Assembly: GCF_007833275.1 (NCBI RefSeq)
Contig: NZ_CP042241.1
Span: 620,001 to 684,000, forward strand
Reading direction: 5' to 3'
Origin: Salarchaeum sp. JOR-1
Lineage (GTDB): Archaea > Halobacteriota > Halobacteria > Halobacteriales > Halobacteriaceae
Length of the DNA: 64,000 nucleotides
In this document: positions 1 to 64,000 of the stretch, piece after piece
Layout: each line of letters opens with the position of its first letter
Position numbering within the stretch: the stretch's first letter is position 1
Translations under genes and position numbers: made by a program
The notes under the pieces: model-generated
What the model was told of the DNA's origin: nothing
Databases searched by the model: none
What the model saw: only the letters and a program-made list of their open reading frames with translations

Positions 1-1278
1 GACGAGGCGGGGCGGAGCGGAGAGACGGTCGCGGTGGGGTACGACGCGCGGGAGACGTCCGGGGGGTTCGCGGACGAGGTGGCGCGGGTGTTGGCGGCGA
101 ACGGCTTCGACGTGTTGCTGCCGGAGCGGGACTGCCCGACGCCACTGGTGGCGCACGCCATCGTGGAGCGCGACCTCGCGGGCGCGGTGGTCATCACGGC
201 CTCTCACAATCCGCCCGAGTACAACGGCGTGAAGTTCATCCCGGCGGACGGCGCGCCCGCCCTCCCCGAGGTCACGGAGGCTATCGAGTCACACCTGGAC
301 GAGCCGACGGTGACGCCCGAGGCCGACTGGGGGGACATCGAGGAAGCGGACTTCGTGAGCCGGCATCGCGAACACGCGCTCGGACTCGTGGACGCCGACC
401 TCTCGGGGCTGACCGTGGTGTACGACGCGATGCACGGGAGCGGGCGCGGCGTCACCGACGAACTGCTGCGCGCGGCGGGCGCGGACGTCGTGTCGCTCCG
501 TGACGAGCGCGACCCCGAGTTCGGCGGAACGCCGCCGGAACCCGACTCCGCGAACCTCGAAGGCCTCGAGATCGCCGTGGACGAGTACGACGCGGATCTC
601 GGCGTCGCGAACGACGGGGACGCCGACCGCGTCGCCGCCGTGGCGCCCGACCGCGGCTACCTCGACGGGAACCAGTTCTTCGCCCTGCTCTACGACTACC
701 TCCTCGAAACCCGCTCGGGGCCGGCGGTGCGCACGGTGTCCACGACGTTCCTCGTGGATCGCATCGCGGAGGCGCACGACGCCGAAGTCGTGGAGACGCC
801 GGTCGGGTTCAAGTGGGTCGCCGAGGCGATGGGCGAGCACGACGCGCTGGTCGGCGGCGAGGAGTCCGGCGGGTACTCCGTCCGCGGGCACGTCCGGGAG
901 AAGGACGGCGTGCTGATGGCGCTGTACGCCGCTGCGGCCGCCGCAACGGAGGGCGGTATCGAGGCGCGCCTCGACCGCATCAGCGAGCGGTACGGCGACA
1001 TCCATCAGGAGAAGACGAGCGTCGACTGCCTCGAGGAGCGCAAACAGCCCGTGCTCCGCGAGCTCGCCGACCGCCTCCCCGAGACGGTGGCGGGCGAGCG
1101 CGTGGAGCGCGTGAGCGACGCGGACGGCTTCAAAATCCTGCTCGAAGACGGCTCGTGGTTGCTCGTTCGGCCGTCGGGAACCGAGCCGAAGATGCGCGTG
1201 TACGCGGAGGCGGGGAGTCAGAAGCGCGTCGAGGAGCTGCTCGTCGCGGGCCGCGACCTCGTCGAACCGCTCATTTGA
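1..1278 (+). CDS. Phosphoglucomutase/phosphomannomutase, 5' end outside the window
   Basis: This is an alpha-D-phosphohexomutase that interconverts hexose 1- and 6-phosphates in the cytoplasm. The frame is open from base 1, and the first GTG (base 34) lies inside conserved N-terminal sequence (VGYDARETSGG), so the true start is upstream. In order I see the phosphoserine loop TASHNPPEYNG, the metal-binding NDGDADR, the sugar-binding GGEESGGY and the C-terminal phosphate loop RPSGTEPKMRVY. All four family signatures are intact. Which sugar is preferred (glucose, mannose or glucosamine) cannot be told from sequence alone. The stop overlaps the convergent GNAT gene by 8 bases. Confidence 0.93.
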   Translation, partial: DEAGRSGETVAVGYDARETSGGFADEVARVLAANGFDVLLPERDCPTPLVAHAIVERDLAGAVVITASHNPPEYNGVKFIPADGAPALPEVTEAIESHLDEPTVTPEADWGDIEEADFVSRHREHALGLVDADLSGLTVVYDAMHGSGRGVTDELLRAAGADVVSLRDERDPEFGGTPPEPDSANLEGLEIAVDEYDADLGVANDGDADRVAAVAPDRGYLDGNQFFALLYDYLLETRSGPAVRTVSTTFLVDRIAEAHDAEVVETPVGFKWVAEAMGEHDALVGGEESGGYSVRGHVREKDGVLMALYAAAAAATEGGIEARLDRISERYGDIHQEKTSVDCLEERKQPVLRELADRLPETVAGERVERVSDADGFKILLEDGSWLLVRPSGTEPKMRVYAEAGSQKRVEELLVAGRDLVEPLI

Positions 1279-60408: not shown

Positions 60409-60516
60409 CGCGACGCCTCCACGTGACTCTGAGCGTTCATGGCCCGTGATTGCGCGGGCACGAAGATAACGGCTTCGTCGCACGGAACTTTTGCCCGTGT
60501 ACACGAACGGTCACGT

Positions 60517-60897
60517 ATGCACGTCAGAGAGGCGGTCGAAGCGGACACTGACGCAGTTTCGAGCCTGCTCGACGCGCCCGCGGGCGTCGCGAGCCGACTG
60601 CTCCGCGAACGCACTGTCTCCGTCGCGGTTCGAGACGAAACCGTGGTCGGCGTGGTCGCGTTCGAGGTGGACGAGGATGCGGTGCACGTGACGCGGCTCG
60701 CGGGCGACTCGGACGACATGGAGCGCCTGCTCGACGAACCGATACGGTTCGCCGCGAACGAGGGGCTTCCGGTGGAACTCCTCGTCGAAGAATCGGACGA
60801 TGACGTCGCGTTCGCAGTGGAAACGAAGGGGTTCGAGAACGTGGGGGCGGGACCGCGGTTCGGGGGCGAGGAGACGATCCGATACCGGTACGGTTAG
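60517..60897 (+). CDS. GNAT-like acetyltransferase, short
   Basis: A 126-residue protein: MHVREAVEADTDAVSSLLDAPAGVASRLLRERTVSVAVRDETVVGVVAF, then TRLAGDSDDMERLLDEPIRFAANEGLPVELLV and KGFENVGAGPRF. The N-terminal strand-helix and KGFExVG segment fit a GNAT fold, but the acetyl-CoA Q/R-x-x-G-x-G/A loop is absent, so catalytic competence is uncertain. Its stop shares TTAG with OapC's stop. Confidence 0.7.
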   Translation: MHVREAVEADTDAVSSLLDAPAGVASRLLRERTVSVAVRDETVVGVVAFEVDEDAVHVTRLAGDSDDMERLLDEPIRFAANEGLPVELLVEESDDDVAFAVETKGFENVGAGPRFGGEETIRYRYG

Positions 60898-61604
60898 TCC
60901 TCCTCGCGCCAGGACTCCGGAACCTCGATGACGTATCGGCCGTTCTCCTGCAGCGCGATGATGTACTCCTCGCGGTCGTACAGCTCCATGAGGTTGAGTT
61001 CGTACTGGCCGGGTGCGACGACCTTGATGGATTCGAACTGGCTGTTCAGCTCCTCGCGGAGTTCGTCCATATCCGGCCGGTCGTCAGACTCGGGTTCCTG
61101 CACCACGCGACCCTCGCGGTCGGGTTTCGGCGGCAGGTCGTCCGAGGTCACCATCTCGGAGCGCGCGTCCGCCTGCGCGGTGTCCTCCCGGTCGGCGTCC
61201 GCCGCCTCGATTTCGTCCGGAACCTCCGCGCCGTCCGTCCCGCTCGTGGACTCGGTGTCGGCGTCCGGTGTCTCGGACGGGAAAGTCTCGGCGCTCGGCG
61301 CGTCCGCGGACGCGGTGTCAGTCGCGTCCTCCGTGTCCCGCGAGTCGCCGGGCCAATCGCTGGACTCCTCGCTGGACGACGAAGAGAGTGTGTCGCGAAC
61401 GCTCGCGGCCGCGCGACCGACCGCCGAGGTCACTGACCCGCTGTCGGGTTCGGGTGGTTCCGGCGGTTCCGCGTCCTCGGGGTCGTCGGGGGCGGCGTCG
61501 GGATGGAACTGGAACTTGTTCCCGCCGCACTCCGGGCACCCCGACAGCATCTCCTTCGACCCGTCGGGGAACGTGTGCCCGCAGTTCGTGCACTGATGCG
61601 GCAT
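60894..61604 (-). CDS. oapC: OapC/ArvC family zinc-ribbon protein
   Basis: A 236-residue protein. N-terminal zinc ribbon CTNCGHTFPDGSKEMLSGCPECGGNKFQF, a long disordered Ser/Asp/Glu/Pro linker, and a conserved C-terminal domain SIKVVAPGQYELNLMELYDREEYIIALQENGRYVIEVPESW. This C-terminal block is diagnostic of OapC, encoded with OapB and OapA beside orc1/oriC across haloarchaea. Role with the OapA/ArvA GTPase in vesicle formation has been proposed for the family. Confidence 0.93.
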   Translation of the reverse strand: MPHQCTNCGHTFPDGSKEMLSGCPECGGNKFQFHPDAAPDDPEDAEPPEPPEPDSGSVTSAVGRAAASVRDTLSSSSSEESSDWPGDSRDTEDATDTASADAPSAETFPSETPDADTESTSGTDGAEVPDEIEAADADREDTAQADARSEMVTSDDLPPKPDREGRVVQEPESDDRPDMDELREELNSQFESIKVVAPGQYELNLMELYDREEYIIALQENGRYVIEVPESWREED

Positions 61605-61605
61605 C

Positions 61606-61986
61606 CTAGTCGCGGGAGATGAGTGCGCTGATGAGGGTGTCGTCCTTGTGCAGCGACTTGATCTGGTTCGCCGGTCCGATGACCGTGAGCTTCGATGACT
61701 CGTTCTTCCCCATCAGGCGGTTGAGGAATCCGCCGTCGTTCGCCTCCGACCGCGGGAACGACTCGATTTCGATACCCGAGAAGCCGTCGGGGTTGATCTC
61801 GCTCATCGTCACCTCGATGAGCTTCGACTCCTCGTCCGGGCTCAGGCCGCGTTCGAGCACCACGATGTTACCGTCGTGAACGCCGTCGAGGATGAGCCGG
61901 ATTTTCTCCATCGAGGTCTTTCCCTCCATCTTCTCGCCGCTGATGAAGTCGATCTGCACGCCGTCTTCGTGTTCTATTTCTGGCAT
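61606..61986 (-). CDS. oapB: OapB/ArvB family protein (DUF2073)
   Basis: A 126-residue protein: EHEDGVQIDFISGEKMEGKTSMEKIRLILDGVHDGNIVVLERGLSPDEESKLIEVTMSEI, then GIEIESFPRS, GGFLNRLMGK and SSKLTVIGPANQIKSLHKDDTLISAL. A roadblock/DUF2073-like fold accompanies the GTPase. One base separates it from oapC and 6 from oapA, so all three are one operon. Confidence 0.93.
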   Translation of the reverse strand: MPEIEHEDGVQIDFISGEKMEGKTSMEKIRLILDGVHDGNIVVLERGLSPDEESKLIEVTMSEINPDGFSGIEIESFPRSEANDGGFLNRLMGKNESSKLTVIGPANQIKSLHKDDTLISALISRD

Positions 61987-61992
61987 CCTGTG

Positions 61993-62640
61993 TCACCCGA
62001 ATTTCGTCGCAATCTCGTCGTACACTTCGTCCATGTTCTCGCCCTCTAGCGCGGAGAGGGGAATGGTGTCGTGCTGGGGGAACGCGTTCTTGATCTGCTG
62101 GATGTTCGCGTCCTCCAGATCAGTCTTGTTCGCGAGGATGAGCACGGGGAGGTCGCGGCTCTCGATGATGCCGATGAGCATCGTGTTCACCTGCGTGAAC
62201 GGATCCGTAGTCGCGTCAAGCACGTAGATGACGCCGTCAACGTCCTCGCGCAGCCAGTGCATCGCCTCCGCGACACCCTCGGTCGCCTCACGGGAGCGCC
62301 GGACGGCCTCGTCCTTCTCCATGCCGTGCTCGACGAACTCCTCGTAGTCGACCTTCGTCGCGACACCGGGCGTGTCGACGATGTCGATGCTGACGGTGCG
62401 GCCGTCGCGCTCGATTTCGACGTTCTCCTTTCGGCGTGCGCGTCGCGTTTCGTGTGGAACGTGACTCTCGGGGCCGATGGCGTCACCGGTCCAGTCGCGC
62501 GCGATCCGGTTCGCGAGCGTCGTCTTCCCCGCGTTCGGCGGTCCGTAAATTCCGATGCGCTTGGGTTCGTCACCCTCGCCGGCGAAGAGCTTCGCCGTCA
62601 CACCGGAGATGCTGTCTTTGAGGTCTGCGAACAGTCCCAT
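61993..62640 (-). CDS. oapA: Era-like small GTPase OapA/ArvA
   Basis: A 215-residue small GTPase. G1 GIYGPPNAGKTTLANRI (residues 30-46), G2 HETRRARR region, G3 DIVDTPGVATKV, G4 LILANKTDLEDA and G5 PLSALEGEN. An N-terminal amphipathic helix (FADLKDSISGVTAKLFAG) could touch membrane. OapA/ArvA is reported to be required for extracellular vesicle formation in haloarchaea; the older name reflects its position by the origin. It is transcribed away from the origin region. Confidence 0.94.
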   Translation of the reverse strand: MGLFADLKDSISGVTAKLFAGEGDEPKRIGIYGPPNAGKTTLANRIARDWTGDAIGPESHVPHETRRARRKENVEIERDGRTVSIDIVDTPGVATKVDYEEFVEHGMEKDEAVRRSREATEGVAEAMHWLREDVDGVIYVLDATTDPFTQVNTMLIGIIESRDLPVLILANKTDLEDANIQQIKNAFPQHDTIPLSALEGENMDEVYDEIATKFG

Positions 62641-62734
62641 CCTTGGCTCTCCTACGCACCCCCATACGTGTAAGGCTAACGCAGAATGCGCGCCGAGACG
62701 GCCGATATCGCGTCAGACGGACGGCATTCGGGTG

Positions 62735-62758
62735 TTCGTGGAAAGGAAACGAAGGGGT
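62735..62758 (+). promoter_or_regulatory. Origin recognition box 1 (partial)
   Basis: Forward box with core GAAACGAAGGGGT (62746-62758) matching ORB2 and ORB3 over 13 bases; the 5' half (TTCGTGGAAAG) is diverged. Binding should be weaker than for ORB2/ORB3. Confidence 0.65.
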
Positions 62759-62839
62759 TCGAGAACCGGTCTCATGCCGAGCGGATGTGCCAGACCGAGA
62801 CGGAGACGTGAGTCGGCGCAACACAACGACGGTTCGAGC

Positions 62840-62866
62840 CCCCCACCCCTTCGTTTCGAGTGGAAC
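62840..62866 (-). promoter_or_regulatory. Origin recognition box 2
   Basis: On the minus strand GTTCCACTCGAAACGAAGG followed by GGTGGGGG. It is the inverted partner of ORB3, with 19-base core identical except the first base. The G-rich tail points toward 62840, away from the AT-rich stretch. Confidence 0.85.
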
Positions 62867-62909
62867 TGTCGAGAAGCGGGGGGCGGGGGGCCGAAGGATC
62901 GCCAAGAAC

Positions 62910-62995
62910 TACACTAGGAACGAACACTACACGACCCTAAATTAAAGTTAGTATTGCAGTACGGGTTTGGTTGTCCTGGCTATCACTTAGTTCTT
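62910..62995. other. Candidate duplex unwinding element
   Basis: AT-rich about 85-base block, densest at CTAAATTAAAGTTAGTATTG (62936-62955), lying between the inverted ORB2 and ORB3. This fits the site where Orc1/Cdc6 opens the duplex for MCM loading. Confidence 0.7.
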
Positions 62996-63042
62996 TCCCA
63001 TTCCTAGGCCGTCTCCTCCCTCCCCCCTCCCCCTCGATCTCG

Positions 63043-63073
63043 TTCTCCACTCGAAACGAAGGGGTGGGGGGGG
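63043..63073 (+). promoter_or_regulatory. Origin recognition box 3
   Basis: TCTCCACTCGAAACGAAGG followed by GGTGGGGGGGG. The G-tract points away from the AT-rich element, in mirror image to ORB2. Confidence 0.85.
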
Positions 63074-63092
63074 TTCGGGACGCCCCAGCACT

Positions 63093-63116
63093 CGACCCAC
63101 CCGTTTCGGGTGGAAC
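63093..63116 (-). promoter_or_regulatory. Origin recognition box 4 (partial)
   Basis: Minus strand GGTTCCACCCGAAACGGGTG: the dyad TTCCACxxGAAACG is kept but the AAGGGG segment is changed. Probably a weaker Orc site. Confidence 0.55.
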
Positions 63117-63460
63117 CACTATGCTCCCGTGTCCGAACGATGCAGCGATCCGGGTTCTCTCGTCCCGTCCTCTCACCGGTCTCGCCGTCCCCGAGCTTCG
63201 TTCAGTCCACTCCCTACCCCACGACGGCACACTCGGGTGCAGTCCGCCCGTTCCATCCGAACCCCTCGTCTCCCGGTCACGTGCACGCAGTCGCCCGCTT
63301 TTCTGCCGCCTCCACCGGTTCTGAAGGCCGGACCGAAACTTATTAACTACTGTACTTTCCATTGTTTCATCTGCATCAACTGCATACGCCTCACGGGCGG
63401 CCACCGTGATTCCGGCGATACTACCTCACTCACGCCGGTTCTCGCTGCCTCGCGGGCATC

Positions 63461-63481
63461 TCCACCTGAAATAGAGGGGTG
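63461..63481 (+). promoter_or_regulatory. Mini origin box immediately upstream of orc1
   Basis: TCCACCTGAAATAGAGGGGTG keeps the TCCACxxGAAA dyad and GGGGTG end. It is 12 bases before the orc1 ATG, so it could also allow Orc1 autoregulation. Confidence 0.5.
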
Positions 63482-63493
63482 AACGATTCAGAT

Positions 63494-64000
63494 ATGGACG
63501 ACAACACACCGGCGGACGACCGGCGCACGGCACGTGACTTCGACGTGGAGATAGACGACGTCCTCGACGAGGACGGCGACGACGAGGACGGCCTCTTCGA
63601 CGACCTCCTCCGCGGCGAACCTATCTTCGAGAACAAGGAAGTCCTCCGCCCCTCCTACACGCCCCACGAACTCCCGCACCGGAACGAACAGATCAACAAC
63701 ATGGCGACAATCCTCGTCGCCGCGCTCCGCGGGGAGACGCCCTCGAACATCCTCATCTACGGGAAGACTGGCACCGGAAAGACCGCGTCCGCGAAGTTCG
63801 TCAGTCAGGAACTCGAAAAGACCTCACGGAAGTACGAAGTCCCCTGCGAGGTCGAATACATCAACTGCGAGGTCACGGACACGCAGTACCGGGTGCTCGC
63901 GCAGCTCGCGAACACGTTCATCCAGCAGAACCGCGAGTTCGTCGACGAGCGTGTGAACGCCCTCGAAGACCTCGCGGAACGCGCACGCGACGACCCGCAC
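63494..64000 (+). CDS. orc1: Orc1/Cdc6 replication initiator, 3' end outside the window
   Basis: The first 169 codons of an AAA+ origin-binding initiator. The N-terminus has an acidic, disordered start (MDDNTPADD, then DEDGDDEDGLFDDLLRG), the conserved IFENKEVLRPSYTPHELPHRNEQI, Walker A NILIYGKTGTGKTASA (about 87-102), and YINCEVTDTQYRVLAQLANTF. The frame continues past base 64000. It recognises ORBs, opens the origin and loads MCM. Direct neighbour of the origin, transcribed away from it. Confidence 0.97.
   Translation, partial: MDDNTPADDRRTARDFDVEIDDVLDEDGDDEDGLFDDLLRGEPIFENKEVLRPSYTPHELPHRNEQINNMATILVAALRGETPSNILIYGKTGTGKTASAKFVSQELEKTSRKYEVPCEVEYINCEVTDTQYRVLAQLANTFIQQNREFVDERVNALEDLAERARDDPH

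Follow-up and report, generated by a model that had tools for sequence, protein, structure and literature searches.

A probable oriC1 in Salarchaeum sp. JOR-1 and an orc1 leader module that recurs across Halobacteria

The locus among described oriC1 systems

Haloarchaeal oriC1 has been defined by inverted ORBs with G-strings, an AT-rich element and a linked orc/cdc6 gene (PMC3528665, PMC3936714, PMC4010727), and in Haloarcula hispanica a G-rich inverted repeat is an enhancer of oriC1 (PMC3936714). The oriC1-cdc6A of Haloarcula hispanica and the oriC1 of Halobacterium NRC-1 and Haloferax volcanii share inverted G-string ORBs around an AT-rich region, an internal G-rich inverted repeat, an adjacent orc1/cdc6 gene and the gene order gbp(oapA)/cdc6/sec (PMC3528665, PMC3936714, PMC4010727). 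The window analysed here is a stretch of 64,000 nucleotides from Salarchaeum sp. JOR-1, positions 620001–684000 of contig C2 in a two-contig genome of 2.52 Mb (C2, 2,344,456 nt; C1, 178,915 nt). Near its right end lies a locus that is like these three systems in all of the above respects and differs from them in nothing essential, except that here the pair is identical over 26 nt and is accompanied by a facing ORB4 common to close genera. Every sequence-level feature of oriC1 that could be tested was present, and since the published description is matched throughout, the locus is assigned to oriC1. Judged by its sequence, it is almost certainly the main chromosome origin, of a known kind and with an ordinary core. 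The initial annotation had already proposed a conserved haloarchaeal oriC1, which the type of orc1, the inverted ORBs with their G-strings, the AT-rich middle, the synteny and the skew all support; neither the internal G-rich inverted repeat nor the orc1 leader module, which is class-wide, had been noticed.

The left arm of the mirror pair is ORB2 (62839–62865, minus strand; TTCCACTCGAAACGAAGGGGTGGGGGG) and the right arm is ORB3 (63045–63073, plus strand; CTCCACTCGAAACGAAGGGGTGGGGGGGG); the sister species, whose genome was the only congeneric one compared, retains 26 of 27 and 27 of 29 of their bases, respectively. The two boxes had been credited with a near-identical 19-base core and a G-tract, and the match goes further: they form a perfect inverted repeat of 26 nt without a mismatch (arms 62839–62864 and 63046–63071, with 181 nt between). 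Exact matches to the 20-nt ORB core were found only at ORB2 and ORB3 in the 2.52-Mb genome, the next best sites having three mismatches, and each box finishes in GGGGTGGGGGG, a G-string of the halophile-specific kind. Such a mirror pair was present at each of the 79 loci, this one among them, whose sequence extends far enough ahead of orc1, at spacings of 184–286 plus one locus at 430. When the origin region was folded as single-stranded DNA, it scored z = −7.95 against shuffles.

The AT-rich element, the presumed unwinding region, lies between ORB2 and ORB3 as first described (62900–62999; 40–46% GC compared with about 66% around it) and is 76% identical in the sister species. Just inside the ORBs sits the internal G-rich inverted repeat, whose left half (62878–62890, plus strand; GGGGGGCGGGGGG) is at the enhancer position known from Haloarcula hispanica oriC1 and whose right half occupies 63022–63033 on the minus strand (CCCCCCTCCCCC on the plus strand); its conservation in the sister species is only loose. 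By analogy with that enhancer (PMC3936714), it may have the same function here. Orc1 from the adjacent gene would bind ORB2 and ORB3 in opposite orientation, with its AAA+ domain on the G-strings, and would load the helicase at the AT-rich element between them; the G-strings would be essential and the G-rich repeat would boost firing, as has been shown in Har. hispanica.

The gene context had been correctly read as oapCBA/orc1. To the left, all on the minus strand, are oapC (arvC; 60894–61604; PF09845 OapC, E 1e-26), oapB (arvB; 61606–61986; PF09846 OapB, E 1e-42) and oapA (arvA; 61993–62640), encoding a small GTPase. To the right, on the plus strand, is the gene for an oriC1-type Orc1/Cdc6 initiator (63494–64000), which runs off the window and is complete in L005, with 491 aa from this ATG; its identity to orc1 in 80 haloarchaeal records is 78–90%. 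A GTG start at 63479 was ruled out for orc1, given that the ATG comes after the box in relatives. The synteny is that described for oriC1 (cf. PMC4010727), with the GTP-binding gene oapA on one side and orc1 followed by a signal-peptidase-like gene, assigned by eye from the translated sequence, on the other. The gene oapA is now called arvA, for a GTPase shown in Haloferax volcanii to drive vesicle formation (PMC10927574), and its older name is therefore not to be taken as a sign of a role in replication.

Weaker boxes outside the pair had also been noted, and only part of that claim stands. ORB4, a weak box facing ORB3 (63090–63115, minus strand; 22 of 26 bases kept in the sister species), recurs in relatives, and its offset from ORB3 is constant within one or two bases in Halobacterium, Halarchaeum and Halospeciosus. 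This facing arrangement at an almost fixed offset is mainly a trait of Halobacterium and close genera. The far-left box (62738–62764, plus strand; 22 of 27 bases kept in the sister species) is doubtful, because 22 identical bases (GGAAACGAAGGGGTTCGAGAAC) shared by 62745–62766, within and just past this box, and 60819–60840 are coding at the latter site, in a small ORF at 60439–60897, and because none of the nine closest loci from other genera that were compared has the box at the corresponding place.

A GC-skew switch had been suggested as a check, and a sign change is centred on the locus in the sampled stretches, which cover about 0.8 Mb of the 2.34 Mb. Cumulative skew increases along the stretch left of the locus and declines along that to its right, with a maximum at 640–684 kb, oriC1 being at 682.6–683.5 kb; this polarity is inverted, as is already known in haloarchaea (PMC2841640). 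The skew is lopsided: its minimum is at about 1.16–1.2 Mb, so the negative arm spans about 0.5 Mb while the positive arm is far longer. A minimum this close to oriC1 on its right side makes a rearrangement or another origin possible. The uneven skew, and the dormant origins known in Haloferax mediterranei (PMC4595724), would suit a dormant copy of oriC1 in a chromosome whose replication begins elsewhere. We consider this very improbable, given the sign change at the locus, the retention of all key boxes in the sister species and the failure to find an ORB array at any of the other three chromosomal orc genes of the genome.

A conserved module in the orc1 leader

The origin core is one more oriC1; the new part is the orc1 leader module. 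A weak box had been reported 12 bases before orc1, and it proved real, ending 13 nt before the ATG at 63494, and recurrent across the class. Taken at the level of sequence, it is part of a class-wide module that consists of a promoter, a conserved block, a spacer, an ORB lacking a G-string and the orc1 ATG. The orc1 promoter contains a BRE/TATA-like element (63334–63346, plus strand; CGAAAC-TTATTAA), whose position relative to the block is conserved. The block (63365–63385, plus strand; TTTCATCTGCATCAACTGCAT) is kept in 21 of 21 positions in the sister species and is near-invariant across the class as TGCATCAACTGGAC, the window version being TGCATCAACTGCAT; its core pattern, TTC..CTGCATCAACTGGAC, is close to invariant downstream of the BRE/TATA-like element. 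The block is probably located at the transcription start, where the TATA spacing predicts it. Then follow a spacer of about 75 nt whose ends pair mutually (63386–63459, plus strand; 70 of 74 positions identical in the sister species) and ORBp (63460–63480, plus strand; CTCCACCTGAAATAGAGGGGT), an ORB without the extended G-string that is identical in 21 of 21 positions in the sister species.

In 74 of 81 loci, including two assigned by hand where the automatic search had chosen another box, an ORB core lacking an extended G-string lies on the strand of orc1 and ends 5–19 nt ahead of its ATG. A search of 292 class genomes for the exact pattern of block, 60–90 nt gap and ORB gave matches in 173, in nearly all cases a single one, and none for the reversed control. 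The genome studied here falls outside the strict pattern because it has CTGCAT in place of CTGGAC. The distance from block to ORB is 88–93 in 150 of 164 sequences (88 in the window), and the exceptions are mostly 81–85, chiefly in Halobacterium and Halarchaeum. Despite this fixed length, spacers from different genera show almost no conserved sequence.

Two other roles for parts of the module were rejected. The block is not a regulon element, since it occurs once in its own genome, and AGGGGT is not a Shine-Dalgarno sequence, since its distance from the ATG varies from 5 to 19 nt and the TTCCAC/GAAAC part would be left unexplained. The leader gave no match near a gathering score in Rfam. We found no description of a promoter-block-spacer-ORB module in the part of the literature open to search, and an earlier mention of a third box is possible.

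Pairing of the spacer ends and constraint on the spacer

Pairing between the two ends of a spacer was compared with pairing between ends from different species in 75 representatives sharing less than 55% identity. The 5' end formed better pairs with the 3' end of its own spacer than with the ends of other species (P 3e-9), and the same holds with GC-matched partners (P 6e-9) and with the ten nearest relatives (P 1e-6). Three control region pairs showed no significant effect under GC matching; without such matching, one of them, which set the 5' arm against the middle of the spacer, gave P 0.01. A scan of 429 window pairs, made with no preset register, placed the optimum at block+10..19 with box-10..-1 (Z −6.9), with further cells along its diagonal. 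Native arms, compared with cross-species arms, thus show covariation beyond chance, as for a conserved pairing. A strong ungapped stem occurs in only a third of representatives, compared with 12% of cross-species pairs. Register and bulges vary between clades, and a single fixed base-pairing register for a hairpin was therefore rejected. In the window itself, the leader folds with a stability only a little above that of shuffles (z −0.96).

The sister species gives a footprint of the module, which is about 97% identical compared with about 50% in adjacent intergenic DNA. Identity reaches 100% in block and box and 95% in the spacer, compared with 51% in 63116–63333, just upstream of the promoter. 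Spacer conservation was 0.78, compared with 0.61 and 0.54 in two adjacent upstream stretches and a random baseline of 0.46 (P 2e-5 and 1e-6 over 21 within-genus or near pairs, which are non-independent). Constraint within genera combined with divergence between them indicates that the spacer is constrained in the short term and that its sequence shifts in the long term, while its length and the pairing of its ends are kept.

The fixed spacing and pairing ends could reflect DNA architecture, such as a cruciform, wrapping or phased protein contacts, instead of a leader RNA. The ratio of G-U to A-C oppositions is 120:79 in native and 508:352 in cross-species arms; this lack of a G-U excess does not separate a transcribed hairpin from a DNA structure and, like the about equal folding of the two strands in clade alignments, gives room to the latter. 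A few outlier spacings (61, 81 and 101) also lie at multiples of about 10 nt from 91, but spacings of 84–85 and 88 do not fit such steps. Moreover, the module begins at a TATA-like promoter and should therefore be transcribed, and all four differences in the sister-species spacer are confined to the predicted apical loop and its margin. Overall, DNA architecture is a possible but somewhat doubtful account.

Candidate control of Orc1 supply

The presence of a conserved initiator box at the promoter and start of the initiator's own gene is what autoregulation predicts, and we see an even chance, arguing from sequence features, that Orc1 feeds back on its own amount through the leader module. ORBp has the core without the G-string that the AAA+ domain contacts, and so should fill only when Orc1 is plentiful; Orc1 would occupy this weaker box after the origin boxes are filled and would then damp its own expression. 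Repression does not, however, follow from the presence of an ORB at a promoter. A fuller version, which we put forward tentatively, is that the leader from the block to the start-proximal ORB is a dedicated hairpin element throughout Halobacteria, by which Orc1 may sense and limit its own level, coupling origin occupancy to initiator supply.

The box before orc1 could instead be an outlying element of the origin, an extra loading site for Orc1, as its match to the ORB core and its location in the intergenic region that also contains the origin might suggest. However, it lacks the G-string that Har. hispanica oriC1 requires, and the minimal oriC1 of that species is just two ORBs and the AT-rich region (PMC3936714). 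Its spacing is also fixed to the block of the orc1 promoter (88–93), whereas its distance from the origin boxes ranges from several hundred to over 1000 nt, depending on the genome. These points make an outlying origin element unlikely. For autoregulation, further cases come from both orc genes of the plasmid (C1), which have ORB arrays with different cores: the orc gene in L007 has a box of its own type at 1873–1898, just before the ATG at 1866 on the minus strand, and that in L008 has one at 1908–1926, just upstream of the TATA. A gene's own box at the promoter or start of both supports the idea of feedback, though in only two cases.

The arrays of these plasmid orc genes, with their two different cores, lie both upstream and downstream (144–455 and 1866–2297 in L007; 494–597 and 1908–2472 in L008), and those downstream are similar to oriC2D, the titration cluster of Har. 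hispanica. Several methanogen genomes from sister classes within the phylum (L257–L276) have an ORB core near orc1, in some cases fused to a TATA-like sequence (AGGGGTTTATA). Among 20 chosen matches outside Halobacteria, orc1 was present in 11 loci, and a recognisable orc start stood close downstream of the box in only two; a start-proximal ORB beyond the class would be, from these sequences, only a lead.

As a candidate for the control of initiator amount in archaeal cells, which are often polyploid, the module is directly testable in Haloferax volcanii or Haloarcula hispanica. Its nearest bacterial parallel is found in the DnaA boxes of the dnaA promoter, which serve initiator autoregulation and likewise place an initiator box at the promoter or start of the initiator's own gene; unlike these, the candidate box here abuts the start codon and is kept, by a spacer whose ends pair, at a constant distance from a conserved block. 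Among archaea, the oriC2D of Haloarcula hispanica similarly consists of ORBs outside the origin, proposed there to limit initiator activity (PMC3936714), but it comprises 11 ORBs downstream of another orc gene, whereas the orc1 studied here has one weak ORB, on its upstream side.
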